Shown: positions 28,885-47,051 of the stretch, piece by piece
Layout: every line of letters starts with the position of its first letter
Position numbering within the stretch: the stretch's first letter is position 1
Source of the DNA: Burkholderia cenocepacia
Lineage (GTDB): Bacteria; Pseudomonadota; Gammaproteobacteria; Burkholderiales; Burkholderiaceae
DNA length: 64,000 bases
Direction: 5' to 3'
NCBI RefSeq assembly: GCF_900446215.1
Contig: NZ_UAQZ01000007.1
Span: 496,001 to 560,000, forward strand
Made by a program: the position numbers and the translations under genes
Notes under the pieces: generated by a model
Seen by the model: the letters and a program-made list of their open reading frames with translations, nothing else
Told to the model about the DNA's origin: nothing
Databases searched by the model: none

Positions 28885-29793
28885 TCAACCGCGATGCAGC
28901 GTCTCGATGACGAGCTCGCGGAGCCAACAGATTCCTTCGTCATTGTCGAAGTTGCGATGCCAATGAACGGTGGATTCAATGTCGGGAATTTCCGCAGGTA
29001 TCGGATAGATCGAGAACTGGCCCGTTTCATTGAACATGAGCGCCGCGCCTTTATGGAGCGTCACCATCCAGTCCGTGCGCTGCAGAATCTGTGGAACAAC
29101 CGTGAAATGGGGTACGCGTAATGCAATACGCCGGTGCAAACCCTGCGTGCGCAAAATATCGTCGATCGCAAGATGGCTGCTGTCGCTGGTTGTGACGCTC
29201 ACATGCAGAAATTCCAGAAACTTCTGTCGTGACAACTTCCGGGCCGGTAGCCCGGCGCGTTTTCGCGTCATGCACACGAACTCGTCGCGAAACAACAGCG
29301 CGTGGTTTGTGACCGGCATGAGCGACGGAAGGTTGCCGATAGCGAGATCGATCTGCCCAAGTCGCAGTTTCTCCTCGACCTCGCGCAGCGGCACTTGCTC
29401 GGCCGCTAGCCGCACCTCCGGTGCAACGCGTTGCAATTTCTCGCAAATGCGCGGCAAGAAAACGTGTTCCCCAATGTCGGACATTGCCAGGCGAAACTCG
29501 CGCGTACTCGTCGCAGGGTCGAACTCTTCGCTTTGCCGCAAGGCTTCGCGGATCGACGCGATGGCGTTGCTGAGCGGGACAGCCAATCTTTCCGCGGTCG
29601 CCGTGGGCAACATTCCATCCGGCGTGCGAACGAAAAGAGGATCGTCGAACAGCGAGCGCAGACGTCCCAGCGAATAACTGATCGTGGGCTGTGACAAGTG
29701 CAGCCGCTGCGCTGCACGCGTGAGGCTGCGCTCTTCGAGAATCACCTGGAACACGCGCAGCAGGTTGAGATCGATGCTATGGAAATTGATCAC
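28885..29793 (-). CDS. LysR-type regulator of the 3-hydroxyanthranilate cluster
   Basis: A 302-residue LysR protein of the NodD/NahR/LinR-like branch. The N-terminal helix-turn-helix reads 'IDLNLLRVFQVILEERSLTRAAQRLHLSQPTISYSL', and the co-inducer domain follows from about residue 90. The GTG at 29793 is chosen as start because it has an AGGGGG Shine-Dalgarno 9 nt upstream and begins just before the HTH; longer starts run into the divergent promoter. It is divergent from the acyl-CoA ligase gene with an 80-bp gap that contains an AT-N11-AT LysR box at 29816-29830. It very likely activates the cluster in response to a pathway intermediate. It is clearly paralogous to the LysR at 49403. Confidence 0.9.
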   Translation of the reverse strand: MINFHSIDLNLLRVFQVILEERSLTRAAQRLHLSQPTISYSLGRLRSLFDDPLFVRTPDGMLPTATAERLAVPLSNAIASIREALRQSEEFDPATSTREFRLAMSDIGEHVFLPRICEKLQRVAPEVRLAAEQVPLREVEEKLRLGQIDLAIGNLPSLMPVTNHALLFRDEFVCMTRKRAGLPARKLSRQKFLEFLHVSVTTSDSSHLAIDDILRTQGLHRRIALRVPHFTVVPQILQRTDWMVTLHKGAALMFNETGQFSIYPIPAEIPDIESTVHWHRNFDNDEGICWLRELVIETLHRG

Positions 29794-29815
29794 GTCTATG
29801 TACCCCCTAAAATTG

Positions 29816-29830
29816 ATCGATTTGACCGAT
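29816..29830. promoter_or_regulatory. LysR box (AT-N11-AT) between regulator and catabolic cluster
   Basis: ATCGATTTGACCGAT is an interrupted inverted repeat (ATCG-N7-CGAT) fitting the canonical T-N11-A LysR site. It lies in the 80-bp gap between the divergent LysR and ligase genes, where a LysR recognition site is expected. An upstream-activator role is inferred from position. Confidence 0.6.
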
Positions 29831-29847
29831 ATCTTAGCGGAACCTAG

Positions 29848-29875
29848 ACTGGCCTCACACATAGGAGAGGCCAGT
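29848..29875 (+). promoter_or_regulatory. Hairpin enclosing the ribosome-binding site of the acyl-CoA ligase gene
   Basis: A 9-bp perfect inverted repeat (ACTGGCCTC / GAGGCCAGT, 29848-29856 and 29867-29875) with a 10-nt loop. The Shine-Dalgarno AGGAGAGG (29863-29870) lies across the loop and the 3' arm, and the GTG at 29874 is partly in the stem. In mRNA this would hide the initiation region and could limit translation of the first cluster gene. The ATG at 29880 lies just outside. Confidence 0.5.
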
Positions 29876-31502
29876 GTTTATGGAACTGACAGATACGATC
29901 GTCGAACAGCGTGCAGACGAACCAGCGGTTGTTTCGTCGCGCACGCTGCCGGCCTTGCTGGCAGCGCGCGTTGCCCGAAACGCCGAGGGACCGCTATTTT
30001 CGGACGGAACCACGGTATGGAGCGGCGCCGATGCCATCGAGATCGCGGCGCGCCGAGCCGGTACACTGGCCGCGCATGGCATCAAGCGCGGTGATCGCGT
30101 CGCATTGCTCTGCGGAAACCGTGCCGAATTCATGGAAGTCGTCCTCGGCTGCGGCTGGCTCGGCGCGGTGGTCGTGCCGATCAACACCGCCTCGCGCGGT
30201 CCGCAACTCGAGCATATCCTGCGTAACTCGGGCGCGCGCTTGCTGGTCGCCGAAGCGCATCTTGTAGACGTCGTGCACGCGCTCGACGCGCGAGATCTTC
30301 CCCTCGAGCACATCTGGCTGATCGACGAACCGGTGGCGAATTCGCTTGCGCCCCGTTACAGCACGACACCGCTCCCCCCGGCAGCAGAGTCGGTTCCGGC
30401 CGCGAACGTCCAAGACGGCGATGCTTTTGCCGTGCTCTATACCTCCGGTACGTCGGGGTTGTCCAAAGGGGTGATCTGTCCGCATGCCCAGTTCTACTGG
30501 TGGGGATACAACACGGCGCATGATCTCGGCGTTGTCGCAGGCGACGTTCTGTACACGTGCTTGCCGCTGTTTCATACAAACGCACTCAACAGCTTTTTCC
30601 AGGCCATGTTGCACGATGCTCAACTCGTCGTGGGCCGGCGTTTCTCCGCGAGCGGCTTCTTCGACGCGTTGGTGGCCACGCAAGCAACCGTTACGTTCGT
30701 TCTCGGTGCGATGGTGCCCATTCTGCTGGGCAGGCCGGCAACTGCGAGCGAGCGTGGACATCGGGTACGCGTCGCGCTCGCGCCGGGCGTGCCGGGACAT
30801 TTCCAGGAAGAATTCACGGCTCGCTGCGGCATTGCCCTGATCGACGGGTACGGCTCGACGGAAACCAATGCAGTGATCGGCGGCGTCGCGAGCGCTCGAC
30901 GCCCGGGATATATGGGCCGGCTGGCTCGAGGCTTCGAAGCGCGTGTCGTCGACGAGCACGATCGGCCGGTACCTGACGGCCAGCCGGGCGAACTGATCCT
31001 GCGCGCCAACGAGCCGTTTTCCTTTGCGAACGGCTATCTGGGCATGGCGGCCGAAACGGTGAAGGCCTGGCGCAATCTGTGGTTTCACACGGGTGACCGC
31101 GTCATACGCGAGGCCGACGGCTATTTCCGTTTCGTCGATCGTCAGAAGGATGCGATCCGCCGCCGCGGCGAGAACATCTCGTCATATGAGGTCGAGCAAG
31201 TGCTGTTGAGCCATCCTTCGGTCGAGACGGCAGCGGTGTTTGCCGTGAAGTCGACGCTCGCTGAAGACGAGGTGATGGCAGTCATCGGCCTGCGAGACGG
31301 CGAGGCGTTGGAGCCACTCGATCTGATCCGCTACTGCGAACCGCGATTGCCATACTTCGCCGTGCCGCGCTATCTGGACTTCCAGCAAGAACTGCCGAAG
31401 ACGGAAAACGGAAAGATCCAGAAGTTCAAGTTACGGGAGACCGGCGTGACTGCCACGACGTGGGATCTGGAAATGTCTGGATACCAGCTCAAGCGTCGAT
31501 GA
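29874..31502 (+). CDS. ATP-dependent acyl-CoA ligase (CaiC-like, AMP-forming)
   Basis: A 542-residue ANL-superfamily enzyme that adenylates a carboxylic acid and transfers it to CoA. Motifs: P-loop 'AVLYTSGTSGLSKGV', A5 'DGYGSTETN', A7 'WFHTGDRV', A8 'RFVDRQKDAIRRRGENISSYEVE' and the C-terminal lysine region 'PKTENGKIQK'. It resembles crotonobetaine/carnitine-CoA ligases, but the acyl substrate cannot be read. The start may be GTG 29874 or ATG 29880, two codons apart. It is the first gene of the plus-strand cluster, with the transporter next. Its presence implies a CoA-activated intermediate that the plain 3-hydroxyanthranilate route does not need. Confidence 0.87.
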   Translation: MFMELTDTIVEQRADEPAVVSSRTLPALLAARVARNAEGPLFSDGTTVWSGADAIEIAARRAGTLAAHGIKRGDRVALLCGNRAEFMEVVLGCGWLGAVVVPINTASRGPQLEHILRNSGARLLVAEAHLVDVVHALDARDLPLEHIWLIDEPVANSLAPRYSTTPLPPAAESVPAANVQDGDAFAVLYTSGTSGLSKGVICPHAQFYWWGYNTAHDLGVVAGDVLYTCLPLFHTNALNSFFQAMLHDAQLVVGRRFSASGFFDALVATQATVTFVLGAMVPILLGRPATASERGHRVRVALAPGVPGHFQEEFTARCGIALIDGYGSTETNAVIGGVASARRPGYMGRLARGFEARVVDEHDRPVPDGQPGELILRANEPFSFANGYLGMAAETVKAWRNLWFHTGDRVIREADGYFRFVDRQKDAIRRRGENISSYEVEQVLLSHPSVETAAVFAVKSTLAEDEVMAVIGLRDGEALEPLDLIRYCEPRLPYFAVPRYLDFQQELPKTENGKIQKFKLRETGVTATTWDLEMSGYQLKRR

Positions 31503-31623
31503 CGCGACGGTCACTATTTTCCGGAAGGCGCGGCGGACAAGTTCGCGACAGGGCGATTCGTCGACGCTTGGCAACTGAGACAGCAGCAATCAGTACATCT
31601 CGAATGTACACATGGAGCCTCCC

Positions 31624-32967
31624 ATGGCCAGCATGAGAACGTTTTCTGCCGCGAGCACGCCCCCTCAAGTGGCGCCCGAGCCCGCAGCGGTCTCTGTCGA
31701 CGAAAGGTCCCTGCGGCGAATCGTGTTCGCGTCCGTCGCGGGGAACGCGCTCGAGTGGTATGACTTTTTCCTGTATAGCACTGCCGCAGCGCTCGTTTTT
31801 GGCGAGCTGTTCTTTCCGAAAGGAACCGATCCGCTCGTGGGCACGCTTGTCGCATTCGCGGGCTTCTCCGTCGGGTTCGCCGCTCGTCCGTTGGGTGGCG
31901 CGCTGTTTGGGCATATCGGCGACCGCTATGGTCGAAAGAGTGCGCTCGTGTGGACCCTGTCGATCATGGGCGGTGCGACGTTCCTGATCGGCTTCCTGCC
32001 GACTTACCCGCAGGTCGGGCTGTGGGCACCGGTGCTGCTGATGGTCCTGCGCATATTGCAAGGCGTCGCGGCTGGCGGGGAATGGGGTGGCGCAGTGCTG
32101 ATGATCAGCGAGTCTGCGCCGCCTGAACGGCGCGGATTTTACGCGTCCATGAGCCAGATCGGCGTCGGCGGCGGTTTCGTGCTGTCGGCTAGTGTTTTCT
32201 TCCTCGTGCAGATGTTGCCGAAGGACGCGTTCATGTCGTGGGGCTGGCGGATTCCGTTCTTGCTGTCGATCGCGATTTTCGGAGTGGGCGTTTATATCCG
32301 TTCGAAGTTGCCTGAAAGCGCCGAATTCGCGAAGGCCGAGGCCGAGGGAAGAAGAGCCCGGATGCCGGTACTCGACGTGATCCGCAAGCATCCGAAGGAA
32401 GTGCTGATGGCAATGGGGCTGCGCGTGGCGGAAAACGGCGCTTCATACATCGTCATTGCGTTTGCGCTCGTTTATGGGAAATTCATCGGCGTACCGAACC
32501 AGATCATGCTCGCTGGCGTGATCGTCTCGATGGCCGTGGAACTGGTCACGCTGATGTTGTGGGGCCGCCTGTCCGACCGGTTGGGCCGCAAGCCCGTGTA
32601 CATGATCGGCGCTGTCGGCGTCGTGATCATCGCGTTTCCGTTTTTCTGGCTCCTCGATACGAAGGTCCCGGCGCTCATCTGGCTGGCCTTCCTGCTCGGT
32701 AATGCCGTGTGTCACGGCGCGATGCTCGGCACGCAACCCGCGTTGATGGGCGAGCTGTTCAGCACGGAAGTGCGTTACTCGGGTATGGCGCTCGGTCACG
32801 AGGTCTCGTCGGTCTTCGCAGGCGGCTTGTCACCGATGCTGGCGACGGCGCTGCTTGCGCACTACCACGCAGCCTGGCCGGTGGCATTGCTGATGGCGGC
32901 CCTCGGGATGATCACCGTGATCTCGCTGTTGTTCACCCACGAGACGGTTGCCCGTCGCGAGCGTTGA
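31624..32967 (+). CDS. MHS-family MFS transporter (metabolite:H+ symporter)
   Basis: A 447-residue, 12-helix transporter. Signatures of the MHS branch are 'AGNALEWYDFFLYSTAAALVFG', 'GHIGDRYGRKSALV', 'RILQGVAAGGEWGGAVLM' and 'HEVSSVFAGGLSPMLATALL'. Members import aromatic acids, citrate, proline or shikimate with protons. The ATG at 31624 has GGAG 6 nt upstream; the in-frame ATG at 31612 lacks one. A 17-bp palindrome (GTACATCTCGAATGTAC, 31593-31609) lies just ahead and may be an operator. It is paralogous to the transporter at 53922. It most likely imports the cluster's substrate acid. Confidence 0.9.
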   Translation: MASMRTFSAASTPPQVAPEPAAVSVDERSLRRIVFASVAGNALEWYDFFLYSTAAALVFGELFFPKGTDPLVGTLVAFAGFSVGFAARPLGGALFGHIGDRYGRKSALVWTLSIMGGATFLIGFLPTYPQVGLWAPVLLMVLRILQGVAAGGEWGGAVLMISESAPPERRGFYASMSQIGVGGGFVLSASVFFLVQMLPKDAFMSWGWRIPFLLSIAIFGVGVYIRSKLPESAEFAKAEAEGRRARMPVLDVIRKHPKEVLMAMGLRVAENGASYIVIAFALVYGKFIGVPNQIMLAGVIVSMAVELVTLMLWGRLSDRLGRKPVYMIGAVGVVIIAFPFFWLLDTKVPALIWLAFLLGNAVCHGAMLGTQPALMGELFSTEVRYSGMALGHEVSSVFAGGLSPMLATALLAHYHAAWPVALLMAALGMITVISLLFTHETVARRER

Positions 32968-32991: not shown

Positions 32992-34158
32992 ATGACACTC
33001 GAGAAATGCGACGAAGTCCTGCTGACAGCCGGGGTGGAAGTACCGTATAGGCGACACGCTCCGTCGGATTCCACTGGCGACCTGCTTGCCCGGGCGTTCG
33101 CCGCTGCCCTCGACGAGTCGGGGTTCTCGGCGAAGGACGTCGACGGACTCGGCGTCGCGTCTTTTACGCTGGCTCCGGACCATGCCATCGACCTCGCGTG
33201 GCGGCTCGGGCTGAGCCCGCGCTGGAGCATGGACGATTGTCACGGTGGAGCAAGCGCCATCAACATGCTGCAGCACGCGATACGCGCGATTCAGCATGGC
33301 GACGCGAACGTGATTGCGCTGGTGTCCGGCGATCGATTCGAGCCGGCTGACTTCAAGCAACTGGTCGATCACTACAACCTGACGACGCGCACCTGGTTAC
33401 GGCCGCTCGACCTCGGTGGACCGAACGGACTGTTCGCGATGCTCACGCAACGTCACGCGAAGCGTCACGACCTGACCCGCCGCGACTATGGGGCGCTGTG
33501 CGTGGCGCAACGGGCGTGGGCGGCGCTGAACCCGAACGCAGTCTATCGAACGCCGCTGACGATCGAAGACTATCTCGAAGCACCGATCATCGCCGATCCG
33601 TTGGGACGATTCGATTGCGTCCCCGTTGTGAGCGGCGCCAATGCCGTGATCATCGCGCGCGCCGATCTCGTGCGTCAGGCCAGGAACGTCCGTGTGCGCT
33701 CCTTGCAATGCCGCTACAACAGCGATCACCAGACGGGGGATGGCACTCGGACTTCATTGTCCGCGATTGCCGGCGAATTGTGGCGACAGGCAGGTGTCGC
33801 GCCCGACGACATCGACATGGTTTCGGTCTACGACGACTATCCCGTGATGGCGATTGCGCAACTGGACGATCTCGGCTTCGCGCCCGACGGCGACTTGCGC
33901 GCAATGATCGCGCGCGTCGAATCGCGCGCCCTGCCGGTGAATACATCCGGTGGTCAACTGTCCGCCGGGCAGGCGGGAGCCGCGGGCGGCATGCATGGGC
34001 TCGTGGAGGCGTTGACCCAGTTGCGCGGACGTGCGGGGGAGCGGCAGGTGCCGAATGCTCGGCTCGCGGTCGTGAGTGGCTATGGAATGGTCGAGTATCG
34101 CTACGGCATGTGTGCGAATGCCGTCGTGCTGGAAGCGGTTGAGCGGGGTGTGCAATGA
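32992..34158 (+). CDS. Thiolase-like protein (SCP2/Ltp2 type), probable retro-aldolase subunit
   Basis: A 388-residue thiolase-superfamily protein. The N-terminal Cys region is 'SMDDCHGGASAIN' (Cys83), and the fold-typical 'NTSGGQLSAGQAGAAGG' lies near residues 318-334. Two catalytic histidines of thiolases are missing: the NEAF/HDCF-type motif reads 'YDDYP' (about 280), and the GHP motif reads 'GQAG'. The final CxG motif is also not recognisable ('GYGMVEYRYGMCANAV'). This residue pattern resembles Ltp2-type aldolases, which work with a DUF35 partner to cleave beta-hydroxyacyl-CoA. The DUF35 gene overlaps by ATGA at 34155-34158, which supports a two-subunit enzyme. The reaction is inferred, not shown. 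Confidence 0.82.
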   Translation: MTLEKCDEVLLTAGVEVPYRRHAPSDSTGDLLARAFAAALDESGFSAKDVDGLGVASFTLAPDHAIDLAWRLGLSPRWSMDDCHGGASAINMLQHAIRAIQHGDANVIALVSGDRFEPADFKQLVDHYNLTTRTWLRPLDLGGPNGLFAMLTQRHAKRHDLTRRDYGALCVAQRAWAALNPNAVYRTPLTIEDYLEAPIIADPLGRFDCVPVVSGANAVIIARADLVRQARNVRVRSLQCRYNSDHQTGDGTRTSLSAIAGELWRQAGVAPDDIDMVSVYDDYPVMAIAQLDDLGFAPDGDLRAMIARVESRALPVNTSGGQLSAGQAGAAGGMHGLVEALTQLRGRAGERQVPNARLAVVSGYGMVEYRYGMCANAVVLEAVERGVQ

Positions 34159-34460
34159 AACTCGAGGTATTCCAGTGCACGCAGTGCGGTTCGACGGTGT
34201 TTCCTGCGCGCTATTTCTGTTTCGAATGCGGCGGCGCCGATTGGCGCGAGCGAGTGGTCGAACACGGCCGCGTCGGCGAATTGACGACCGTGCGCCGGCG
34301 CGTCGGCGCGCAAGACGGCGGCGACGTGCTTCTTGCAAGCGTGACGACGGATGCTGGCCCGACCGTCATCGCGCGACTCGAATGCGCGGTGCGGACTGGC
34401 GACTGCGTCCGCCTTGCAGTCGACGAACAGAACGGTGTTCTTGCGCTGCCCGTCGCGTGA
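34155..34460 (+). CDS. Zn-ribbon/OB-fold protein (DUF35), partner of the thiolase-like protein
   Basis: A 101-residue protein. An N-terminal rubredoxin-like zinc ribbon, 'CTQCGSTVFPARYFCFECGG' (two CxxC pairs), is followed by an OB-fold ('GELTTVRRRVG...VLLASVTTDAGPTVIARLE'). DUF35 proteins bind thiolase-like partners and complete acyl-CoA binding, for example in steroid side-chain retro-aldolases. The start overlaps the stop of the thiolase-like gene by ATGA, so the two are made in a coupled way. It is shorter than typical DUF35 proteins (about 130 residues) because its C-terminus is compact. Confidence 0.87.
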   Translation: MKLEVFQCTQCGSTVFPARYFCFECGGADWRERVVEHGRVGELTTVRRRVGAQDGGDVLLASVTTDAGPTVIARLECAVRTGDCVRLAVDEQNGVLALPVA

Positions 34461-34577: not shown

Positions 34578-36068
34578 GTGACAACTCAATTGAATTCGAC
34601 CTCGCGCGACCGGCAGTTGTTGCGCCATTACATCAACGGTGAGTTTGTGGCGAGCGGCACAACCTTTCCAAACCTCAGTCCGGTCGACGGTCGCAAGCTT
34701 GCCGACGTTTGCGAAGCAGATGCGGCGCTCGTGGATAGCGCCGTACAGGCGGCTCACGCGGCGCAGAAGGCCGGCTGGCGCGACACGACGCCCGCGCAAC
34801 GGGCGGCATGGCTGCATAAGATCGCGGACGGCATCGAGGCCCGCTTCGACGAATTCGTGGCGGCGGAAGTCGCCGATACCGGTCGGCCTGTCGCGCAGGC
34901 CCGCACCCTCGACATCGCACGTGGCATTGCCAATTTCCGGACCTTTGCCGACCTTGTCCGCACCGCGAGCGGTGAGTACTTCGAAACGCATGCGGCGGAC
35001 GGCAGCGAGCTGATCAACTACGTGACGCGCAAGCCGCTCGGCGTGATCGGCATCATATCGCCGTGGAACCTGCCTCTGCTGTTGTTCACGTGGAAGGTGG
35101 CGCCGGCGCTGGCAATGGGCAACTGTGTGGTCGCCAAGCCCTCCGAGGAGACACCCAGCTCCGCAACGTTGCTCGCCGAAGTCATGCACGACGTCGGCTT
35201 GCCACCCGGCGTCTTCAATCTGATTCATGGGCACGGCCAGAACGCGGCCGGCGAATTCCTGACGCGTCATCCGGATATCAGTGCAATCACGTTCACGGGC
35301 GAGTCGCGCACCGGCAGCACGATCATGAAGGCCGTTGCGGACGGCGTGAAAGAGGTTTCGTTCGAGCTGGGCGGCAAGAACGCGGCCGTCGTGTTCGCGG
35401 ACGCGGACTTCGATGCCGCGGTTGCCGGCGTCCTTCGGTCCAGTTTCACGAACGCCGGCCAGGTCTGCCTGTGCAGTGAGCGGGTGTATGTGGAGCGGCC
35501 GATCTTCGAGCGCTTCGTCGCGGCGCTCAAGGAACAGGCGCAAGCATTGCGCGTTGGCGCGCCGGAAGATCCCGCCACGACGATGGGACCGCTCATTTCG
35601 CGCGGCCATCGCGACAAGGTGCTGTCGTATTTTCGTCTTGCCGTCGAAGAAGGCGCGACGGTCGTGACCGGTGGTGGCGCCCCGAGCTTCGGCGATGCAC
35701 GGGACGACGGCGCGTTTGTGATGCCGACGATCTGGACGGGCTTGCCGGATTCCGCCCGATGCGTACGGGAAGAGATTTTCGGACCGGTGTGCCACATCGC
35801 GCCGTTCGACGACGAAGCGGAGGTCGTGAAGCGCGTCAACGACAGTGCTTATGGTCTTGCCGCAAGCATCTGGACGACGCAGCTTGCGCGCGGCCATCGC
35901 GTCGCGAAGCAGATCGAGACGGGCATCGTGTGGGTCAATGCGTGGTTCGTGCGCGATCTGCGCACACCCTTCGGTGGCACCAAACTGTCAGGACTGGGAC
36001 GCGAGGGGGGCCGCCATTCGCTCGACTTCTATTCCGAATTGACGAACGTTTGCGTGAGGATTGCATGA
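34578..36068 (+). CDS. 2-aminomuconate/2-hydroxymuconate semialdehyde dehydrogenase
   Basis: A 496-residue NAD+-dependent aldehyde dehydrogenase. '[12 protein letters not shown]' opens the protein; the NAD-site '[22 protein letters not shown]', the general-base Glu in '[13 protein letters not shown]' and the nucleophilic Cys in '[14 protein letters not shown]' are intact. By context it oxidises 2-aminomuconate-6-semialdehyde, formed by the ACMS decarboxylase encoded downstream, to 2-aminomuconate. The start is assigned to GTG 34578, which has AGGAGAAGG 4-5 nt upstream; the frame is open further back to 34488 but without a good site. The stop overlaps the deaminase start (ATGA). Confidence 0.87.
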
Positions 36069-36490: not shown

Positions 36491-37072
<582 letters not shown>

Positions 37073-38883: not shown

Positions 38884-40125
38884 ATGATGAACGGTGAATA
38901 CATTGACATTGACGCCGGCAATGGCGAAGCCTTTTCCGCGTACCTCGCGCGGCCCCGACAAGGTTCCGGCCCCGGCTTGGTCCTGTTGCAGGAAATCTTC
39001 GGCATCAACGACTACATGAAGGAAACGGCCGATCGGTTTGCCGAGGAAGGGTATGTCGTGCTGGTGCCCGATCTGTTCTGGCGCATGAAGCATGGTGTCG
39101 ACCTCGGCTACACCGGCGAGGACTTCGCCACGGCGCTGCGATATAACGACGAGTTCGATGTCGACAGGGCAATCACCGACATCGCATCGACGATCAAGAC
39201 CCTCCGCTCGCTCGAGCAGCACGCCGGAAAGGTCGGCGCCGTCGGCTATTGCCTGGGCGGCAAACTCGCGATGCTGGCGGCCGCTCGCACGGACATCGAC
39301 TGCGCCGTGAGTTACTACGGTGTGGGGCTCGATGCATATCTGGAAGAGGTGCCGTCGATTCGATGCCCGATGGTTTTTCATTTCGCCGGTGAAGACGCGC
39401 TGTGCCCCGAGGCAACACGCGAGCCGATCCAGTCGGCGCTTTCCGCGCTGCCTGCGGTCGAGCAATACGTGTATCCCGGGTGCGATCACGCTTTCGCGAC
39501 CCCGAAACGCGAGCATTTCGACAAGCCGGCGGCGATGATGGCTTATTCGCGTACCATCGCGCTGTTGCGTAAAGTGCTCGGACCCGTCTATGACCTGAAC
39601 GCGCTGTGGGAGCTGCACTGCTATCACGAATTCGATTCGCGCGACGTCGATTCGATCTTGCCGACCATGGTTCCCGCGCCATACGTCAACCATGTGCCGA
39701 CCATGACGGGAGGCGTTGGCTACGACGATCTCAAACGGTTCTACAAGTATCACTTCGTTCACGCCAATCCGAAGGACACGCATTTCATTCCGATCTCGCG
39801 CACCATCGGCGCGGACCGTATCGTCGATGAATTCATTTTCTGTGCCACCCACGACCGCGAGATCGACTGGATGCTGCCCGGACTCGCGCCGACCGGCAAG
39901 TACATCGAGATTCCGATGCTGGCAGTCATCTGCTTCCGTGGCGACAAGCTGTACAACGAGCACATTTACTGGGACCAGGCTTCGGTGCTCGTCCAGATCG
40001 GTGTTCTGGATCCCACGGGACTGCCGGTTGCCGGCATCCGTACCGCGAAGAAATTGATAGACGAGACATTGCCGAGCAACGAGCTGATGACGAAGTGGGC
40101 GTCGAGCGAAGGCAAGCCGATCTGA
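38884..40125 (+). CDS. Dienelactone hydrolase-NTF2-like (SnoaL-like) fusion protein
   Basis: A 413-residue two-domain protein. Residues 1-235 form a dienelactone hydrolase-type alpha/beta hydrolase with nucleophile Cys123 in 'AVGYCLGGKLAM', Asp near 170 ('GEDALCPE') and His near 201 ('GCDHAFATP'). Residues about 240-400 resemble an NTF2/SnoaL-like cone ('LWELHCYHEFDSRDVDSILPTMV...YDDLKRFYKYHF...LAVICFRGDKLYNEHIYWDQASVLVQIG'), a fold used for binding or cyclase/hydratase chemistry. The DLH half would open a lactone or enol ester. No lactone occurs in the 3-hydroxyanthranilate route, so this gene points to an upstream substrate. The ATG at 38884 has AAGGA upstream. Confidence 0.83.
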   Translation: MMNGEYIDIDAGNGEAFSAYLARPRQGSGPGLVLLQEIFGINDYMKETADRFAEEGYVVLVPDLFWRMKHGVDLGYTGEDFATALRYNDEFDVDRAITDIASTIKTLRSLEQHAGKVGAVGYCLGGKLAMLAAARTDIDCAVSYYGVGLDAYLEEVPSIRCPMVFHFAGEDALCPEATREPIQSALSALPAVEQYVYPGCDHAFATPKREHFDKPAAMMAYSRTIALLRKVLGPVYDLNALWELHCYHEFDSRDVDSILPTMVPAPYVNHVPTMTGGVGYDDLKRFYKYHFVHANPKDTHFIPISRTIGADRIVDEFIFCATHDREIDWMLPGLAPTGKYIEIPMLAVICFRGDKLYNEHIYWDQASVLVQIGVLDPTGLPVAGIRTAKKLIDETLPSNELMTKWASSEGKPI

Positions 40126-40240: not shown

Positions 40241-41362
40241 ATGAAACTAAAGTCAGGACTACTGGCGGTTATGGCGGTTGCGTCAACCTCGGCATCGGCG
40301 CAAAGCTCGGTGACCCTATACGGAATCATCTCGAACGGGCTCGGTTATGTCAGCAATCAGGGCGGGCACAGCAACTGGACAATGATTAGCGGAGCCAATC
40401 AGAACAATCGCCTGGGATTCAGATTGACCGAAGATCTGGGCGGCGGTCTGTCCGCTATCGGAGTCCTGGAGAACGGCTTCGATAGCAACAGCGGCAAACT
40501 GGGGCAAGGCGGCCGGATGTTCGGGCGGCAGGCGTTTGTCGGGCTGTCGAGTCCGACGTACGGGAAAATTACTTTCGGTCGACAGTACGACGTGCTGTGG
40601 GATTACCTGGATCGTATCGAACCACAGGCCATGGGTCCAGGCCTTGGCGTCAGTGTCGGCAGCAACGACAATATCGAAGGCAACTTCCGCTACAGCAACG
40701 CCGTCAAGTATACGAGCCCGGTCTGGGGCGGCTTCGGATTCGAATCCCTGTACGCGTTCAGCAACAAGGCCGGCAGCTTCCAGCAGAACCGTGCGTTCAG
40801 CGCAGGCGTCAATTTCGACCAGCATACGCAACGATATGCGCTGGTCTACGTCGAAATCGACCATCCGGGCACGGGCAATCCAAATGGCGCGGTGAGCGAC
40901 GACTACGCAGGTGCTCCGTTCCAGCTGTTCCATACCAGCCCGCTCAGTTCGTCGGTGGGCGTACGGAAACAGCGCGTGATTGCCGGGGGGGCCGAGTACG
41001 AGTCCGAAAAACTCAGCCTCGGCGCCATCGTTTCCGACGTGCGCTACAACTATCTCGATAGCACGAGCCTGCATCTGGACAACCTTAGCGTCGTCGGCGT
41101 GTACAAGCTGACGCCAGCCTTGTTCGCCTCGGCTGCCTACCTGTACACGCACGGCAGCTACGGTGGCGTCGTCTCGAATCCGCACTGGAACCAGGGACAA
41201 GTGAGCGTCGACTATTTCCTTTCGAAGCGAACGGACGTCTATGCGTACGTCAACTACATCCGTGCCTCCGGATCCAACGCCCCCGCCGTGTTGTTCCTCT
41301 CTTCAAAATCGAGCACGAATGCGCAAACGGCCGTGGTGGTAGGGGTGCGTCACAAGTTTTGA
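40241..41362 (+). CDS. Gram-negative porin (OmpC/Burkholderia type)
   Basis: A 373-residue outer-membrane trimeric porin. The signal peptide 'MKLKSGLLAVMAVASTSASA' is cut before 'QSSVTLYGIISNGLGY', the classic first strand of Burkholderia porins. 'RQAFVGLSSPTYGKITFGRQYD' and the C-terminal 'VVVGVRHKF', ending in Phe, complete the signature. It likely admits the pathway substrate across the outer membrane. It sits inside the catabolic cluster, 115 bp after the DLH fusion gene, and is followed by a small hairpin at 41385-41406. Confidence 0.92.
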   Translation: MKLKSGLLAVMAVASTSASAQSSVTLYGIISNGLGYVSNQGGHSNWTMISGANQNNRLGFRLTEDLGGGLSAIGVLENGFDSNSGKLGQGGRMFGRQAFVGLSSPTYGKITFGRQYDVLWDYLDRIEPQAMGPGLGVSVGSNDNIEGNFRYSNAVKYTSPVWGGFGFESLYAFSNKAGSFQQNRAFSAGVNFDQHTQRYALVYVEIDHPGTGNPNGAVSDDYAGAPFQLFHTSPLSSSVGVRKQRVIAGGAEYESEKLSLGAIVSDVRYNYLDSTSLHLDNLSVVGVYKLTPALFASAAYLYTHGSYGGVVSNPHWNQGQVSVDYFLSKRTDVYAYVNYIRASGSNAPAVLFLSSKSSTNAQTAVVVGVRHKF

Positions 41363-41424: not shown

Positions 41425-42210
41425 ATGAATACGATTCTCGACCGGATTGTCGATCGCAAGACTCGTGAAGTCCGGCTGGCAGCCGAGTGCATGCCGCAAG
41501 CCGAGCTTCGCGAGATCGCGGCGACTGTCGACTCAAGGGATTTTATCGCCGCGCTTCGCAACAAGGCCAGGCAAGGCTTGACCGGCGTCATCGCCGAGGT
41601 GAAGAAGGCGAGCCCGTCCGAGGGGATTTTGCGGCCGGACTTCGACCCTGCGGCTATCGCGGCATCGTACGAGGAAGCCGGCGCCGCCTGCCTCTCCGTG
41701 CTCACCGATCAGGTGTTCTTCCACGGAAGTGCATCGGATCTTCGCGCTGCGCGCGATGCGTCAAGCGTGCCGGTGCTTCGCAAGGATTTCATCGTGGACG
41801 CCTATCAGGTTTGGGAGGCGCGTGCGATGGGGGCCGATTGCATCTTGCTCATAGCGGCGGTCCTCGATGGCGGCGCGATGCGGGAACTCGAATGCCTCGC
41901 GTCCGAACTGGGCATGGCAGTGATCGTAGAGATTCACGGCGCTCATGAGCTCGACGCGGCACTCACGTTGAAGACCCCGCTGATCGGCGTGAACAACCGC
42001 GATCTTGCGACTTTCGCAACGAATATCGAAACAACCGTCGCGATGCGCCGGCTCATCCCCGGCGACAGGATGGTCATTTCGGAGTCTGGAATTCGGAATG
42101 CGGACGATGCACGAAGGCTTCGTTCAGCAGGCGTGGAGCATTTCCTCGTCGGCGAAGCGCTGCTTCGCGCCGAGAACCCGGGTGCCGCGCTCAAGCAGAT
42201 CTTCTATTAG
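41425..42210 (+). CDS. trpC: Indole-3-glycerol-phosphate synthase (TrpC-like) within the catabolic cluster
   Basis: A 261-residue TIM-barrel enzyme with all IGPS active-site blocks: 'VIAEVKKASPSEG' (catalytic Glu and Lys), 'VLTDQVFFHGSASDL', 'VLRKDFIVDAYQVWEARAMGADCILL' (catalytic Lys), 'IVEIHGAHELDAAL', 'IGVNNRDLATFATNIETT' (Asn) and 'VISESGIRNADDA' (Glu-Ser). The known reaction closes the indole ring of carboxyphenylamino-deoxyribulose phosphate with loss of CO2. No other trp gene is nearby, so this is a paralogue recruited to, or travelling with, an aminobenzoate catabolic cluster. The start is the ATG at 41425; an in-frame TTG at 41413 is an alternative. Its role here is unexplained. Confidence 0.85.
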   Translation: MNTILDRIVDRKTREVRLAAECMPQAELREIAATVDSRDFIAALRNKARQGLTGVIAEVKKASPSEGILRPDFDPAAIAASYEEAGAACLSVLTDQVFFHGSASDLRAARDASSVPVLRKDFIVDAYQVWEARAMGADCILLIAAVLDGGAMRELECLASELGMAVIVEIHGAHELDAALTLKTPLIGVNNRDLATFATNIETTVAMRRLIPGDRMVISESGIRNADDARRLRSAGVEHFLVGEALLRAENPGAALKQIFY

Positions 42211-42231: not shown

Positions 42232-43020
42232 ATGAAAGCCATGCGAATTCAAGAGGCGGCGGCCGCGCTGCGTGACGCGGCAAAGACACGCAAATACATC
42301 GCGCCGTTGCGCGAGACATACGAGCAACTGAGCATCGCCGACGCGTATGCGATTCAGCGGATCAACACGGACCAGCATCTGGCGGATGGTCGGCGCCTCG
42401 TTGGTTGCAAGATCGGCCTGACCTCCGTGGCGGTGCAGAAGCAGCTCGGGGTCGATCAGCCGGACTTCGGCATGTTGTTTGATCACATGGGCTACGGCGA
42501 CGGCGAACCCATTCCGGCTGAAATCCTTACCCAGCCGAAAATCGAAGCCGAAATCGCATTCGTCATCGGTCGCGATATCGTGGTAAGCGATCCAGGCCAC
42601 GTGGATGTGCTCGGTGCCATCGAGTACGCGCTGCCGGCACTTGAAATTGTCGGCAGCCGCATCGCCGACTGGGATATTCGCATCGCCGACACGATCGCCG
42701 ATAACGCATCGTCGTGCGCGTACGTGCTGGGCTCCCGTCCGCGCCAGCTGTCGGGTATCGACCTGCGTCTTTGCGGCATGGCGATGGAGCGGTGCGGGGA
42801 ACTCGTATCGGTGGGCGCGGGAGCCGCATGTCTGGGCAACCCGCTCAACGCTGTCGTATGGCTCGCGCGAACGATGCATGCGCTCGGCACGCCGCTCAAG
42901 GCCGGCGACCTGGTCTTGTCCGGCGCCTTGGGTCCGATGGTTGCCGTCAGCCCCGGCGACGTATTCGAGACGCGCATCAACGGGCTCGGCTCCGTCCGTG
43001 CGGTTTTTGACCACGATTGA
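42232..43020 (+). CDS. 2-oxopent-4-enoate (2-keto-4-pentenoate) hydratase
   Basis: A 262-residue MhpD/XylJ-type hydratase. '[30 protein letters not shown]' and '[16 protein letters not shown]' carry the metal-binding Glu residues, and '[13 protein letters not shown]' is the family block. It adds water to 2-oxopent-4-enoate to give 4-hydroxy-2-oxovalerate. It is homologous to the next gene; 'GMLFDHM' and 'GEPIPAE' favour hydratase here and decarboxylase for the neighbour. It is 21 bp from the IGPS gene and followed after 14 bp by its paralogue. Confidence 0.86.
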
Positions 43021-43034
43021 AGCGAGGCACGCCA

Positions 43035-43802
43035 ATGATCACCACCATGGAATACGCCAGGCTGCTCGACGAGGCAGCAGTCCATGCGACCGAAGTGGCC
43101 CAATTCGACCCGGAAAGCCAGCTCCCGCTCGATATGGCTTATGCGATTCAGGCAGCGTCGATACAACGCCGTGTCGAACGCGGCCATCGACGCGTGGGTG
43201 TCAAGATGGGCTTTACCAGCCGCGCGAAGATGCTTCAAATGGGTCTGTCAGACGTGATCTGGGGACGTTTGACGGCCGACATGCAGATCGAGGAAGGCAC
43301 GGCGATCGATGTCGCGCGATTCGTGCATCCGCGCGTCGAGCCCGAAATTGCGTTTGTTCTGAAGCGATCGCTCGACGGCGACGTGACGGGGCCGCAAGCG
43401 TTGGCCGCTGTCGAGGCCATCGCGCCTGCGCTCGAGATCATCGACTCTCGCTACAAGGACTTCAAGTTCACGTTGCCGGAAGTGATAGCGGACAACGCGT
43501 CGTCGAGCGGCTTCGTCCTCGGTCCCTGGTGCGATCCTCGTGTCGACGTTTCGAATCTCGGCCTCACGCTGAATATCGATGGACGTGCCGTGCAGGTTGG
43601 ATCGACCGCGGCGTTGCTGGGCCATCCGTTACGTTCGCTCGTAGCCGCCGCTCGGCTTTCAGCTCGAGCGGGCGAACCTTTGCAGGCTGGCTGGATCGTG
43701 ATGGCCGGCGGTGCGACTCCGGCCGAATGGATCAGGCCCGGACAGCACGTGTCAGTCGATATCGAACAATTGGGCAGTGCGTGCTTCTACACCAGGAAGT
43801 AA
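43035..43802 (+). CDS. 4-oxalocrotonate decarboxylase
   Basis: A 255-residue protein of the same fold as the hydratase. 'VGVKMGFTSRAKMLQMGLSDVIWGRL' with 'ARFVHPRVEPEIAFVL' is the decarboxylase (DmpH/NahK/NbaG) version of the motif. It converts 4-oxalocrotonate to 2-oxopent-4-enoate plus CO2. DmpH and DmpE homologues form a complex that channels the unstable dienol, and the adjacent genes here fit that arrangement. The start is the ATG at 43035 with GAGG about 7 nt upstream; an earlier in-frame start at 43017 overlaps the hydratase stop. It is followed by 230 bp without a recognisable gene. Confidence 0.86.
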   Translation: MITTMEYARLLDEAAVHATEVAQFDPESQLPLDMAYAIQAASIQRRVERGHRRVGVKMGFTSRAKMLQMGLSDVIWGRLTADMQIEEGTAIDVARFVHPRVEPEIAFVLKRSLDGDVTGPQALAAVEAIAPALEIIDSRYKDFKFTLPEVIADNASSSGFVLGPWCDPRVDVSNLGLTLNIDGRAVQVGSTAALLGHPLRSLVAAARLSARAGEPLQAGWIVMAGGATPAEWIRPGQHVSVDIEQLGSACFYTRK

Positions 43803-44032: not shown

Positions 44033-44995
44033 ATGAATGACAGGGTGAAGGTCGCCATCATCGGTCCCGGCAATATCGGCACCGATCTGATGATCAAGAT
44101 AATGCGAAACGGCAGGCATCTGAAAATGGGTGCCATGGTTGGCGTCGATCCGAATTCGGAAGGGTTGGCGCGTGCGGCACGCATGGATGTCGCGACGACG
44201 GCAGAAGGAATCGACGGCTTGCTACGGCTGGACGTATTCAAGGAGATCGATATCGTCTTCGATGCGACGTCAGCGGGCGCGCACGGACGTCACAATGAAT
44301 TGCTGCAGGCGCATGGGGTTCAGGTGATTGACCTCACGCCTGCCGCGATCGGGCCGTATGTGATTCCATCGATCAATCTGGAAGAAGAAAACGCGACAAA
44401 CATGAATATGGTCACGTGCGGCGGGCAGGCCACCATTCCGATCGTCGCCGCTGTTTCACGCATCGCCAAAGTCCACTATGCGGAGATCGTCGCGTCGATC
44501 TCCAGCCGGTCCGCCGGGCCGGGAACGCGCGCGAATATTGACGAATTCACCGAGACGACGCGAGCCGCGATTGAAAAGCTTGGCGGCGCCGAGCGCGGTA
44601 AGGCGATCATCGTTCTCAATCCCGCGGAGCCGCCGTTGATCATGCGCGACACCGTATTCGTGCTGTCGGAAAACGCGGAGCCGGCGGCTATCGAGGCGAG
44701 TATCGCCGAAATGGTGAGCAGCGTGCAGGAATACGTTCCGGGCTACCGCCTGAAGCAGTCGGTTCAATTCGACGCGGTGCCGCCGGACATGCCGCTCAAC
44801 GTGCCGGGCATCGGGCCGCGGCACGGCTTGAAAACCTCGGTATTTCTCGAAGTGGAAGGCGCAGCCCACTATTTGCCTTCCTATGCCGGCAACCTCGACA
44901 TCATGACGTCGGCGGCACTCGCGTGCGGAGACATGATGGCCCGGCGCCGGATGGCCGCCGGCATCGCTCGCGGCTTCAAGGAGACGGCGCGATGA
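44033..44995 (+). CDS. mhpF: Acetaldehyde dehydrogenase (acylating)
   Basis: A 320-residue CoA-dependent acetaldehyde dehydrogenase. '[18 protein letters not shown]' is the NAD-binding start, '[17 protein letters not shown]' carries the nucleophilic Cys, and '[22 protein letters not shown]' is the family block. It oxidises the acetaldehyde released by the aldolase to acetyl-CoA within a channelled complex. The start has GGGAG upstream. The stop overlaps the aldolase start (ATGA), as is usual for this bifunctional pair. The symbol is used by family convention (MhpF/DmpF/BphJ). Confidence 0.94.
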
Positions 44996-46035
44996 ATTCA
45001 GCAGAAAAGAAGCTTTACATCTCGGACGTCACGTTGCGCGATGGCAGCCATGCGATCCGTCATCAATACAGCGTCGACCATGTCAGGGCGATTGCCGCGG
45101 CGCTCGACGATGCCGGCGTCGACAGCATCGAGGTTGCTCATGGGGACGGGCTCCAGGGATCGAGCTTCAACTACGGATTCGGCGCTCACACCGATGTCGA
45201 ATGGATTGCGGCGGCGGCGCAAAGCGTCAAGAAGGCGAAGATCGCGACGCTGCTGATTCCCGGCATCGGCACGACCCATGATCTCCGGCATGCGTTCGAT
45301 GCCGGCGCACGGGTCGTACGCGTGGCTACGCATTGCACGGAAGCCGATGTATCCCGCCAGCATCTCGATTTTGCTCGTGAGCTGGGTATGGATGCGGTGG
45401 GGTTCCTCATGATGAGCCACATGACCACCCCGCAGAAGCTGGCTGAGCAGGCGAAGATGATGGAAACGTTCGGCGCCACCTGTGTTTATGTGGTTGATTC
45501 GGGTGGTGCGCTCGGCATGAATGAGGTACGGGACAGGTTTCGCGCGCTTAAGGCGGTGTTGAAATCCGACACTCAAACCGGGATGCACGCACACCATAAC
45601 CTGAGCCTCGGCGTGGCCAACTCGCTGGTTGCCGTGGAGGAGGGGTGCGATCGCATCGATGCGAGCTTGGCCGGCATGGGTGCGGGCGCCGGCAATGCGC
45701 CGCTCGAAGTGTTCATTGCGGCGGCACAGCGACAGGGCTGGAATCACGGCTGCGATTTGTACCGGCTCATGGACGCGGCTGACGATCTTGTGCGACCGCT
45801 TCAGGATCGGCCGGTACGCGTCGACCGCGAAACGCTTGCGCTCGGTTTCGCCGGCGTTTATTCGAGCTTCCTGCGTCATGCGGAAGTTGCCGCCGGCAAA
45901 TATGGGCTGAAGACCGTCGACATTCTGGTCGAACTCGGCAGGCGGAAGATGGTCGGCGGCCAGGAAGACATGATCGTCGACGTCGCGCTGGATCTGTTAA
46001 AGCGCCAACAGCCGATCATGAGCGACGCGCATTGA
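44992..46035 (+). CDS. mhpE: 4-hydroxy-2-oxovalerate aldolase
   Basis: A 347-residue class II pyruvate aldolase. '[22 protein letters not shown]' carries the metal-binding Asp and catalytic Arg, '[16 protein letters not shown]' the general base His, and '[22 protein letters not shown]' the metal His pair. It splits 4-hydroxy-2-oxovalerate to pyruvate and acetaldehyde and hands the latter to the partner dehydrogenase encoded immediately upstream. The true start is the ATG at 44992. This is the last pathway step and completes the route from 3-hydroxyanthranilate to central metabolism. Confidence 0.94.
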
Positions 46036-46112
46036 GCTGCCGTGGGCGGCGTTGCCTCGTGTTTCTTCGACAGTCGCAGCGAATGGCTGCGACTCGATTC
46101 TGGTGAACCAAC

Positions 46113-47051
46113 ATGCGAACCTTGTCGGCTTCCCGTCAGCATCAGCCGTTTGTCTATCAATTGAATGTCGGTGCTGTCAAAGTGACCGTGATCGCCGAGT
46201 CGGTCGCGCCGCTCCTCCGATGGCAGGAACTCTATCCCGACGCGACGGAGCGGTCCGTGTCGGCATCCATCGCGACCGCGGATCCCAAACTCTACGACGT
46301 CGGCAGCGGGCGGCTCGTCATCGCTATCCAGGGTTTTCTCATTGAAAGCGAGGGGACGACGCTGATGGTCGACACTTGCGTCGGGGACTGCAAGGCCCGA
46401 GCGCGAGGCGAATTCAATGAAGCCCGTTTCGGCTGGCTGAGCCGGTTGCAGGCGGCGGGCATCCGCGTCGAGGATGTCGACCTGGTGCTTTCCACGCATC
46501 TGCATGTCGATCATGTCGGCTGTAACACCTACTACGCTGACGGCTGGTGGCGCCCCACGTTTCCCAACGCGCGCTATCTGTTTGTCAGCGAGGAATTCGG
46601 GTTTTGGTCGAGCGAGCTGGCGAGATCACCGCTGGAAAGGACCGGCGACTACATCGGGGACAGCGTCATGCCGCTTTTCGAGGCTGGACTCGCCGATATG
46701 ATCGACTCCCGGCATGTCATCGATTCGTCCATTCGCGTCATTCCGCTGCCCGGACACACACCGGGGCACGTCGGCGTTTGCATTGAAAGCAATCGGAGGC
46801 GGGCGATTATATCCGGCGACCTGTTTCACACAGCGCTTCAATTGGAAAATCCGGACTGGAGCACGAGGTTTTGTGTCGATCCCGATCAGTCCCGCCAAGC
46901 CAGGCGAGCGTTCTTTGACGCACATGCCGACACGGATACGCTGATTTTGCCAGCGCACTTTCCCTATCCGTGTGCGGGGTTCATTTGTCGCATGGGGACT
47001 GCCTACGCCTTTCGATTCATGAGTTCGGAGAAGATTCTGAATATGTCCTAG
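46113..47051 (+). CDS. Metallo-beta-lactamase-fold hydrolase
   Basis: A 312-residue MBL-fold protein. The di-metal site reads 'STHLHVDHVG' (HxHxDH), 'PLPGHTPGHVGV' and 'IISGDLFH'. 'AIQGFLIESEGTTLMVDTCVGD' is typical of the N-acyl-homoserine-lactonase/aryl-hydrolase branch. No signal peptide is present, so it is cytoplasmic. Possible roles are lactone, thioester or amide hydrolysis. It is the last gene of the plus-strand cluster and converges with the carboxylesterase gene. The substrate is unknown, and quorum quenching would be a guess. Confidence 0.83.
   Translation: MRTLSASRQHQPFVYQLNVGAVKVTVIAESVAPLLRWQELYPDATERSVSASIATADPKLYDVGSGRLVIAIQGFLIESEGTTLMVDTCVGDCKARARGEFNEARFGWLSRLQAAGIRVEDVDLVLSTHLHVDHVGCNTYYADGWWRPTFPNARYLFVSEEFGFWSSELARSPLERTGDYIGDSVMPLFEAGLADMIDSRHVIDSSIRVIPLPGHTPGHVGVCIESNRRRAIISGDLFHTALQLENPDWSTRFCVDPDQSRQARRAFFDAHADTDTLILPAHFPYPCAGFICRMGTAYAFRFMSSEKILNMS

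Follow-up and report, generated by a model that had tools for sequence, protein, structure and literature searches.

A 64,000-nt stretch of Burkholderia cenocepacia DNA (assembly GCF_900446215.1, contig NZ_UAQZ01000007.1, positions 496,001 to 560,000; the window) carries at about 28.9-55.3 kb a 26-kb gene cluster whose predicted function is the catabolism of an indole-3-acetate-type acid. For this reading of the substrate and the reactions, which comes from sequence comparison, we give a probability of about 0.6. The initial annotation of the cluster had proposed the degradation of a larger aromatic amine: its side chain would be loaded with CoA and split off first, and 3-hydroxyanthranilate (3-HAA) would be released afterwards. 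This proposal is supported and fits most of the comparative evidence, and the side-chain chemistry itself, CoA activation followed by retro-aldol removal, appears likely.

All steps of the proposed route were derived from homology and gene context. The substrate would be taken up by a porin and carriers of the metabolite/H+ symporter (MHS) family. A two-component flavin monooxygenase of the IacA type, with an EthD-like protein and possibly an IacE encoded elsewhere, would convert it to an acid of the dioxindole-3-acetic acid (3-hydroxy-2-oxindole-3-acetate, DOAA) type. An acyl-CoA ligase would form the CoA thioester, a tertiary β-hydroxyacyl-CoA, which a thiolase-fold/DUF35 pair could split by a retro-aldol reaction into an isatin-type ketone and acetyl-CoA. 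A short-chain dehydrogenase/reductase (SDR) and an IifA-like oxygenase would turn isatin or dioxindole into an anthranilate-type acid, here 3-HAA, and NbaC and the meta-cleavage enzymes would degrade 3-HAA to pyruvate and acetyl-CoA.

Predicted retro-aldol function of the thiolase-like/DUF35 pair

The initial annotation had named a thiolase-like/DUF35 pair. Fold and partner were borne out, but where thiolases have their nucleophilic Cys, the profile alignment with 7yvy and 9myr shows Gly86. The DUF35 gene overlaps the gene of the thiolase-fold protein (below, the aldolase) by 4 bp. For a profile of 10 sequences (A1), the first PDB match was 9myr (E = 1.8e-46), a complex of CtSal with the CtShy DUF35 domain, followed by 4u4e and, in third place, by 6ok1, the Ltp2-DUF35 aldolase (E = 4.3e-37); with the single sequence, 4u4e came first and 9myr second. 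The ColabFold model, built from a 20-sequence alignment (A2), had a mean pLDDT of 84.2 and a pTM of 0.89, with residues 320-330, including both Gln residues discussed below, under 50. Its first Foldseek match was again 9myr (E = 3.5e-30). The VIA-align Z scores were 42.5 for benzoylsuccinyl-CoA thiolase, 42.4 for acetoacetyl-CoA thiolase, 41.9 for SCP2 thiolase, 41.8 for Sal and 41.2 for Ltp2. Since SCP2-type thiolases and aldolases lie within about 1.3 Z units, the fold is not decisive and the residues have to decide.

In CtSal, Tyr302 and Cys304 of the YDCY motif are described as catalytic together with Gln347 and Gln352, and Gly occupies the position of the thiolase nucleophile (PMC12329534). 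In the alignment to CtSal, Y280 of a YDDY motif corresponds to Tyr302, Q322 and Q327 to Gln347 and Gln352, and Gly86 to the thiolytic Cys position. A survey across named genomes gave 144 aldolase relatives, and 80 of these loci were kept; all counts out of 80 refer to these, with at most 10 kb fetched per side, some stretches cut by contig ends, and matches called by identity thresholds. The set of Gly86, YDDY and two Gln was invariant in 80/80 loci, from Burkholderiaceae to Actinobacteria. The missing thiolytic Cys together with the conserved YDDY and Gln residues led us to assign the protein as a predicted retro-aldolase; a biosynthetic or SCP2-type ketothiolase role was dropped because the thiolytic Cys position is Gly.

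Like the steroid side-chain aldolases Sal-Shy(DUF35) and Ltp2-ChsH2(DUF35), the window pair combines a thiolase fold, a DUF35 partner and a YDxY base with the lack of the thiolytic Cys. It differs from both in its non-steroid context, and from Sal in having Asp instead of Cys as the acid residue. Asp282 and Gln327 were aligned where Sal has Cys and Ltp2 a second Tyr, so that the protein departs from the family at this residue and should work like a Sal, with a variant active site, rather than be one. An Ltp2-like retro-aldolase would need a tertiary β-hydroxyacyl-CoA, which dioxindole-3-acetyl-CoA is, and the products would then be isatin and acetyl-CoA.

The pair might instead perform another reaction of the thiolase superfamily, either as a ketothiolase on 2-aminobenzoylacetyl-CoA or in a Friedel-Crafts-type C-acylation or deacylation as PhlABC does. 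Fold and DUF35 partner would be alike, benzoylsuccinyl-CoA thiolase and PhlC are also among the PDB matches, and a 2025 preprint names IadG a ketothiolase (PMC12633357). The Gly without exception at the thiolytic position and the Sal aldolase as the closest profile and Foldseek match make this rather improbable.

Probable indole-3-acetate context of the CoA core

The initial annotation had asked whether the CoA genes are passengers of a 3-HAA cluster, and the comparison came out the other way round. The ligase was found in 69/80 loci (56 at 48% identity or more), DUF35 in 55, the first MHS carrier in 49, the fusion of a dienelactone hydrolase (DLH) and a SnoaL domain in 22 and the SDR in 21; what varies is the set of 3-HAA genes (NbaC in 6/80). 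The passenger idea was thus dropped and the CoA genes were taken as the conserved core. Isatin-hydrolase-type proteins (10/80), IadD-like Rieske proteins (10/80), IorA (8/80), IacA-type oxygenases with acyl-CoA dehydrogenase (ACAD) fold (7/80) and nitrilases (3/80) also occur in these neighborhoods. In the family survey of 398 genomes, with E = 1e-60 as the threshold, 55 genomes had the aldolase (59 places), and 8 of these, the window genome included, carried it at 90-100% identity.

The neighbors of the aldolase homologues, namely IadD-like Rieske proteins, isatin hydrolases, nitrilases and IacA-type oxygenases, point to indole-3-acetate chemistry. In nine loci (L112-L118, L122, L123) an aldolase 74-76% identical to that of the window stands beside a Rieske alpha subunit. 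The one from L112, tested on behalf of these nine, had 9o71 and 7yls as best PDB matches (E below 1e-200). We take 7yls (437 aa, Rieske) to be IadD, whose length it fits; the PLoS Biology text gave no match to 7YLS, 7YLR or 8H2T. A related Rieske enzyme (tested for L070) and a nitrilase accompany the aldolase in L070 and L126, a luciferase-type monooxygenase in L163, and an M20-type amidohydrolase, of a family that includes auxin-amino-acid hydrolases, in L056 and L059. In B. multivorans (L008) close homology to PDB 5nmp (E = 7e-141) marks the cyclase next to the core as an isatin hydrolase. The same locus (CP143551, L008:15758-21657) has an IorA/IorB-like pair with this isatin hydrolase behind the CoA core; oxidative decarboxylation of isatinate is possible there, as an alternative to the IifA-like route.

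The iad locus of Variovorax CL14 (IadC-K) resembles the window in having a CoA ligase and a thiolase-fold protein, which in the window are predicted to remove the acetate side chain on the way to an anthranilate-type product. This likeness rests on the Paraburkholderia IadD-like neighbors of the aldolase at 74-76% identity and not on the sequences of Variovorax IadF and IadG. According to the iad preprint, deletion of iadF (acyl-CoA synthase) or iadG (ketothiolase by annotation) lowers anthranilate and lets C10H9NO4 accumulate, C8H7NO2, C8H7NO3 and C7H7NO occur on the way to anthranilate, and the route does not pass through 2-oxindole-3-acetate, against an earlier proposal (PMC12633357). We read these formulas as DOAA, dioxindole, isatinate and aminobenzaldehyde, respectively. 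Unlike the iad locus, the window has no Rieske entry oxygenase, MarR or isatin hydrolase among its annotated genes, and its product would enter 3-HAA cleavage. IadCDE was absent from the annotated genes of 28.9-55.3 kb, the part of the window scanned for it (1-28 kb and 56-64 kb were not).

A candidate entry enzyme lies in a second block at 51.5-55.3 kb, 4.4 kb past the gene of the metallo-β-lactamase (MBL)-fold hydrolase. The initial annotation had stopped at that gene (28885..47051). All the genes it named there were found with place and strand as claimed, but it overlooked the block, and the gene system probably reaches to about 55.3 kb. PDB relatives of the ACAD-type oxygenase are Rv3094c, 3-HSA hydroxylase and p-hydroxyphenylacetate hydroxylase C2. 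Like the iac clusters of P. putida 1290, P. phytofirmans PsJN and C. glathei, the block joins an IacA-type oxygenase to a flavin reductase and an MFS carrier; unlike them, the window has no IacC/IacD Rieske protein among its annotated genes, and Rieske alpha and reductase genes are on contig C7 instead. The iac pathway ends in catechol. The same block, with an ACAD of 93% identity, is found in Caballeronia sp. Sq4a, where it is divergent and lies next to the first LysR gene. In other Burkholderiaceae it adjoins iac-like genes (Rieske alpha/beta, reductase), and several of these neighborhoods add a second ACAD (about 65%), an amidase, a SnoaL-like protein and an SDR (partly by eye). Among 10 further ACAD regions, 8 are beside iac-type genes (L174-L179, L181, L182), L180 has the block without them, and L173 shows a second, 63% identical ACAD. 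A separate iacT2-iacA-iacG cluster with the layout of the window block is described for P. xenovorans (PMC11676955), and IacA and IacE are reported to make 2-oxindole-3-acetate (oxIAA) and then DOAA (PMC7225977).

L173 is a region of the window genome itself (G000:C7, about 5400-17400). It holds an iac-type cluster with Rieske alpha, reductase, the IacA-like ACAD (63%), an amidase (by eye) and a flavin reductase, and the organism thus probably has two auxin routes.

The later steps were assigned from the DLH-SnoaL gene and the SDR. The former, a dienelactone hydrolase-NTF2 fusion in the initial annotation, is indeed a two-domain gene and could be refined to IifA-like. Over 415 aa it shares 56% (55.7%) identity with the protein that opens an iif-type operon of Acinetobacter, in the IifA position. 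The record is unannotated there, and an SDR, a monooxygenase, a flavin reductase and a further protein were recognized by eye, with Rieske-type genes nearby. Identities to proteins in related settings were 58% (B. pyrrocinia) and 60% (pCAR1); the Acinetobacter and B. pyrrocinia settings have the iif layout. The window thus shares with the iif/ind/dho indole pathway (Acinetobacter, Cupriavidus, Pseudomonas savastanoi) a DLH-SnoaL protein of 56-60% identity over nearly full length. In contrast, its SDR is only 28-33% identical to the SDRs compared, its oxygenase belongs to a different family, and the CoA steps are outside the iif pathway as described. No oxygenase of the IifC styrene/indole-monooxygenase type was seen among the annotated cluster genes.

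IifA is described as a cofactor-independent oxygenase that converts 3-hydroxyindolin-2-one to anthranilate (PMC6221969, PMC7225977), so isatin made by the aldolase would need prior reduction. The SDR is the obvious candidate, yet a weak one, as its catalytic Tyr is Leu. The initial annotation was right on this point: the window motif is LSASK, relatives have LSASK, LCASK or LCAAK, and the Tyr is missing in 20/21 relatives with a match (L126 is the exception). DLH-SnoaL (22/80) and isatin hydrolase or IorA (13/80) share 0/80 loci (Fisher p = 0.01, for loci that are related and not independent), and this mutual exclusion suggests alternative routes from one intermediate. Neither was present in the fetched stretch of 45/80 loci, the Achromobacter group among them.

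The 3-hydroxyanthranilate module and the source of its hydroxyl group

The lower route from 3-HAA to pyruvate and acetyl-CoA, as read by the initial annotation, is complete by family assignment, with five enzymes over curated cut-offs, and the best PDB match of NbaC was 1yfu (E = 1.3e-108 over 172 residues). In this it equals the nba/3-HAA meta-cleavage pathway from NbaC to the 4-hydroxy-2-oxovalerate (HOA) aldolase. It differs in that it would be fed by the CoA module and not by 2-nitrobenzoate or kynurenine. Neither the NbaA/NbaB nitroreductase and mutase nor a kynurenine hydroxylase was found among the annotated cluster genes, and no model search was aimed at them. A plain kynurenine/nba cluster was dropped as a reading. 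Such a set is seen in B. arboris (L006), which has homologues of the semialdehyde dehydrogenase (ALDH), RidA, 2-amino-3-carboxymuconate semialdehyde decarboxylase (ACMSD), 2-oxopent-4-enoate hydratase (OPH), acetaldehyde dehydrogenase and HOA aldolase and a kynureninase-like open reading frame (by eye), with no match to ligase or aldolase.

The module sits in two pieces among the upper-part genes, with overlapping or short junctions, and 7 of the 8 genomes with the closest aldolases show this interleaving with the gene order unchanged. In Caballeronia sp. Sq4a (L005) NbaC is joined to the core and the cluster is otherwise syntenic with the window. This plasmid copy has ALDH (17340-19177), porin (23315-24465) and HOA aldolase (27993-29056) each split in two frames. 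P. sejongensis (G397, also L093) has ligase, MHS, aldolase, DUF35, SDR, DLH-SnoaL, porin and a second indole-3-glycerol-phosphate synthase (IGPS) without the 3-HAA module; a separate NbaC homologue (76%) with one in-frame stop lies at G397:C5:159636-160163.

NbaC also stands in the aldolase-ligase neighborhood of the actinobacterial loci L141, L170 and L199. Rhodococcus JCM 9791 has the order isatin hydrolase, thiamine pyrophosphate enzyme, MHS, aldolase, DUF35, ligase, ALDH, 4-oxalocrotonate decarboxylase (OCD), RidA, NbaC and ACMSD, with some genes broken in the draft. Nonomuraea soli and one more genome of its order have ALDH and NbaC by the core and no RidA or ACMSD match in the stretch. 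The aldolase is rare there (1/348 genomes in the Rhodococcus order and 2/297 in the Nonomuraea order; these counts include the two starting genomes). The window NbaC shares up to 87% identity with its counterparts in Burkholderiaceae outside the close group, and 54% with the actinobacterial NbaC. The module has thus probably been joined to the core more than once.

One explanation for this association is that the cluster degrades plain indole-3-acetate to anthranilate, that a hydroxylase, either the IacA-type ACAD/flavin reductase or some other enzyme, then makes 3-HAA from it, and that NbaC opens the ring. Hydroxylation of anthranilate to 3-HAA is described as a known route (PMC6221969), and 6/9 close loci (window, L005, G197, G262, G132, G238) have a two-component oxygenase of the ACAD type in the vicinity of the cluster. 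The same block, however, also adjoins the iac-type genes in the 8 further regions mentioned above, and in the stretches fetched for G073 and G384, both close loci, and for the actinobacterial loci, NbaC is present but no ACAD was recognized. The ACAD occurs at 81% identity or more in 28 family genomes, and NbaC in 10 of these; without the 6 whose NbaC is in this cluster, 4/22 remain, versus 70/370 of the rest (hand count). Because its distribution outside the cluster does not track NbaC, a dedicated anthranilate 3-hydroxylase was dropped, and the explanation as a whole was kept as an unlikely one.

It is less probable still that the 3-HAA module is a passenger serving exogenous 3-hydroxykynurenine or 3-HAA through a chromosomal kynureninase, its insertion in an auxin operon being accidental. 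Kynureninase is present in the window genome and also in C. temeraria, P. sejongensis and Nonomuraea (3/4 further genomes examined). The module is missing from L093, and NbaC was absent from all 20 more distant loci examined (20 of 51 other places, aldolase identity 66-82%, up to 10 kb fetched each side). This view is countered by the interleaving of the module in two pieces and by NbaC being joined to the same core in Actinobacteria, where the Rhodococcus JCM 9791 assembly, whose completeness is not stated, gave no kynureninase match.

No ring hydroxylase was recognized in the three actinobacterial stretches, in which some reading frames are unidentified. With NbaC by the core and no such enzyme, it is simplest to assume that the substrate already carries the hydroxyl. 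Indole C7 becomes anthranilate C3, and a 7-hydroxyindole group is the most likely source of the 3-hydroxyl, although we hold this only tentatively. Plants are reported to make dioxIAA-7-O-glucoside and oxIAA-7-O-glucoside (maize) and 5-O forms (rice bran) (PMC11936858, PMC9458244). With similar reserve, the cluster and the separately assembled operons of the Rhodococcus and Nonomuraea orders may degrade a ring-hydroxylated, plant-inactivated auxin, 7-hydroxy-(di)oxindole-3-acetate, which in maize is found as 7-O-glucosides. CoA loading and the YDDY retro-aldolase would then give 7-hydroxyisatin and acetyl-CoA, and 3-HAA would form without a ring hydroxylase. Nothing on bacterial use of 7-hydroxy auxins was found among the paper titles listed for this subject.

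A different lower part is seen in Leekyejoonella antrihumi (L166:5213-8572 and 14480-16120), where the CoA core and an isatin hydrolase occur together with a dioxygenase of the gentisate/5-aminosalicylate type (match to 3bu7 at E = 2e-152, NCBIfam models under cut-off), a fumarylacetoacetate hydrolase (FAH) family enzyme and a nitrilase, and without NbaC. This set would fit a 5-hydroxyanthranilate product and 5-hydroxy auxin forms.

Several findings weigh against the assignment of the cluster to a 3-HAA-linked auxin route. The initial annotation had stated that no kynureninase is present. This holds for the annotated cluster genes but not for the genome, as a kynureninase is encoded on contig C5 and makes a kynurenine source possible at the genome level. 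The genome also has the separate iac-type cluster on contig C7, and no isatin hydrolase was matched in it at E = 1e-20 with the query that matches ten of the 80 loci, although an empty result of this kind is no proof of absence. The upper part persists without the 3-HAA module in the close relative P. sejongensis, and the ACAD block does not follow NbaC across the family genomes.

Cluster layout and genomic setting

The features of the cluster are collected in Table 1. From the ligase to the MBL gene all genes are on the + strand, with 16 junctions of -11 to 230 bp. A promoter and terminator scan of the cluster was not above shuffled sequence (5 found versus 5.6 expected and 18 versus 16.0).

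Table 1. Genes of the predicted catabolic cluster, in window coordinates
Feature	Position	Strand	Basis and remarks
LysR-type regulator, divergent from operon	28885..29862	-	PF00126/PF03466; homologue adjoins core in many relatives
AMP-forming acyl-CoA ligase, predicted to attach CoA to the acetate side chain of an acid of the dioxindole-3-acetate type	29880..31502	+	NF004808/PRK06155 equivalog, 906.9 bits, cut-off 722
MHS-family metabolite/H+ symporter, likely substrate uptake	31612..32967	+	TIGR00883, 409.8 bits, under cut-off 443
Thiolase-fold retro-aldolase (predicted)	32992..34158	+	Gly86, Y280-D281-D282-Y283, Q322, Q327
DUF35/ChsH2-type zinc-ribbon protein, likely aldolase partner	34155..34460	+	PF12172; Cys8, 11, 22, 25
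2-Aminomuconate/2-hydroxymuconate semialdehyde dehydrogenase (ALDH)	34578..36068	+	TIGR03216, 874 bits, cut-off 693
RidA-family protein, likely 2-aminomuconate deaminase	36065..36490	+	PF01042; role by context
3-Hydroxyanthranilate 3,4-dioxygenase (NbaC)	36539..37072	+	TIGR03037 and PRK13264 over cut-off
ACMSD-type amidohydrolase	37098..38132	+	PF04909 alone, no NCBIfam model; name by context
SDR, Leu for catalytic Tyr; possibly isatin to dioxindole (weak)	38122..38835	+	PF00106
IifA-like two-domain protein (DLH + SnoaL), predicted dioxindole-type to anthranilate-type oxygenase	38884..40125	+	PF01738 and PF07366 (latter under cut-off)
Outer-membrane porin	40241..41362	+	PF13609
Second IGPS (TrpC paralogue)	41425..42210	+	PRK00278.1-6 over cut-off
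2-Oxopent-4-enoate hydratase (OPH)	42232..43020	+	NF008461, 353.5, cut-off 350
4-Oxalocrotonate decarboxylase (OCD)	43035..43802	+	Best NCBIfam TIGR03218, 218 bits, under cut-off 351; name by family/context; FAH fold, as OPH
Acetaldehyde dehydrogenase (acylating)	44033..44995	+	TIGR03215 over cut-off
4-Hydroxy-2-oxovalerate (HOA) aldolase	44992..46035	+	TIGR03217 over cut-off
MBL-fold hydrolase, lactonase-like	46113..47051	+	PF00753; AidB model 94 bits, far under cut-off 360
Carboxylesterase	47234..48955	-	PF00135; homologue near cluster in Caballeronia sp. Sq4a (79%), beside core in B. multivorans L008 (57%)
LysR regulator 2	49403..50323	+	Homologues (77-93%) adjoin iac-type genes in relatives
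LysR regulator 3, start codon uncertain	50507..51526	-	Named by eye from translation and by position in relatives
EthD-like protein	51471..52163	-	TIGR02118, 40.0, cut-off 30.5
Flavin reductase of two-component oxygenase	52148..52666	-	PF01613; TIGR02296, 203.8, just under cut-off 205.95
IacA-type FADH2-dependent oxygenase (ACAD fold), likely entry enzyme	52698..53888	-	PF08028
Second MHS-type transporter (MHS2), start codon uncertain	53922..55289	-	Translation; 87% identity to Caballeronia Sq4a protein annotated MFS transporter

The IGPS gene, counted as a cluster member by the initial annotation, is present, but its membership is less certain: it was found in 5/80 loci, all of the close group, and is kept in P. 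sejongensis, whose cluster has no nbaC. It is 56% identical to the other copy of the genome on contig C9. The MBL count (2/80) is an undercount, as in the close group the gene sits beyond the fetched stretch.

Between about 28 and about 68 kb, counted in window positions, the GC content is low (about 60-64% per 2-4 kb). It is mostly 66-73% to the left, with a single dip to 59.5% at 12-14 kb, and 66-69% to the right. An IS21-like istA/istB pair (named by eye; L189:2136-3934, about 66136-67934 of the window) lies near the end of the low-GC stretch, so the cluster region is probably an acquired island. Outside the cluster, positions 13595-22369 encode a repetitive surface protein of 2924 aa, a large adhesin in which 24 stretches of the bacterial Ig-like type (Big_13/Big_6) occur together with BapA_N and hemolysin-type calcium-binding repeats.

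The cluster combines parts of the iac, iad, iif and nba systems, all of known kinds, and no description of a 3-HAA-linked auxin route or of this gene combination was found in the literature searched, which mostly left subscription journals aside. If the proposed route is true, C-C bond cleavage in one kind of bacterial auxin degradation would get an assayable mechanism, a retro-aldol reaction on dioxindole-3-acetyl-CoA by a thiolase-fold/DUF35 enzyme annotated as thiolase. A role would also be suggested for the DLH-SnoaL fusion, and for oxidized auxins, the inactive products of plants, a bacterial fate that bears on the hormone balance around roots. The annotations "thiolase" and "acetyl-CoA acetyltransferase" in such loci would need correction. 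If the substrate is a ring-hydroxylated auxin, the side-chain cleavage of the iad route would be retro-aldol and not ketothiolytic.

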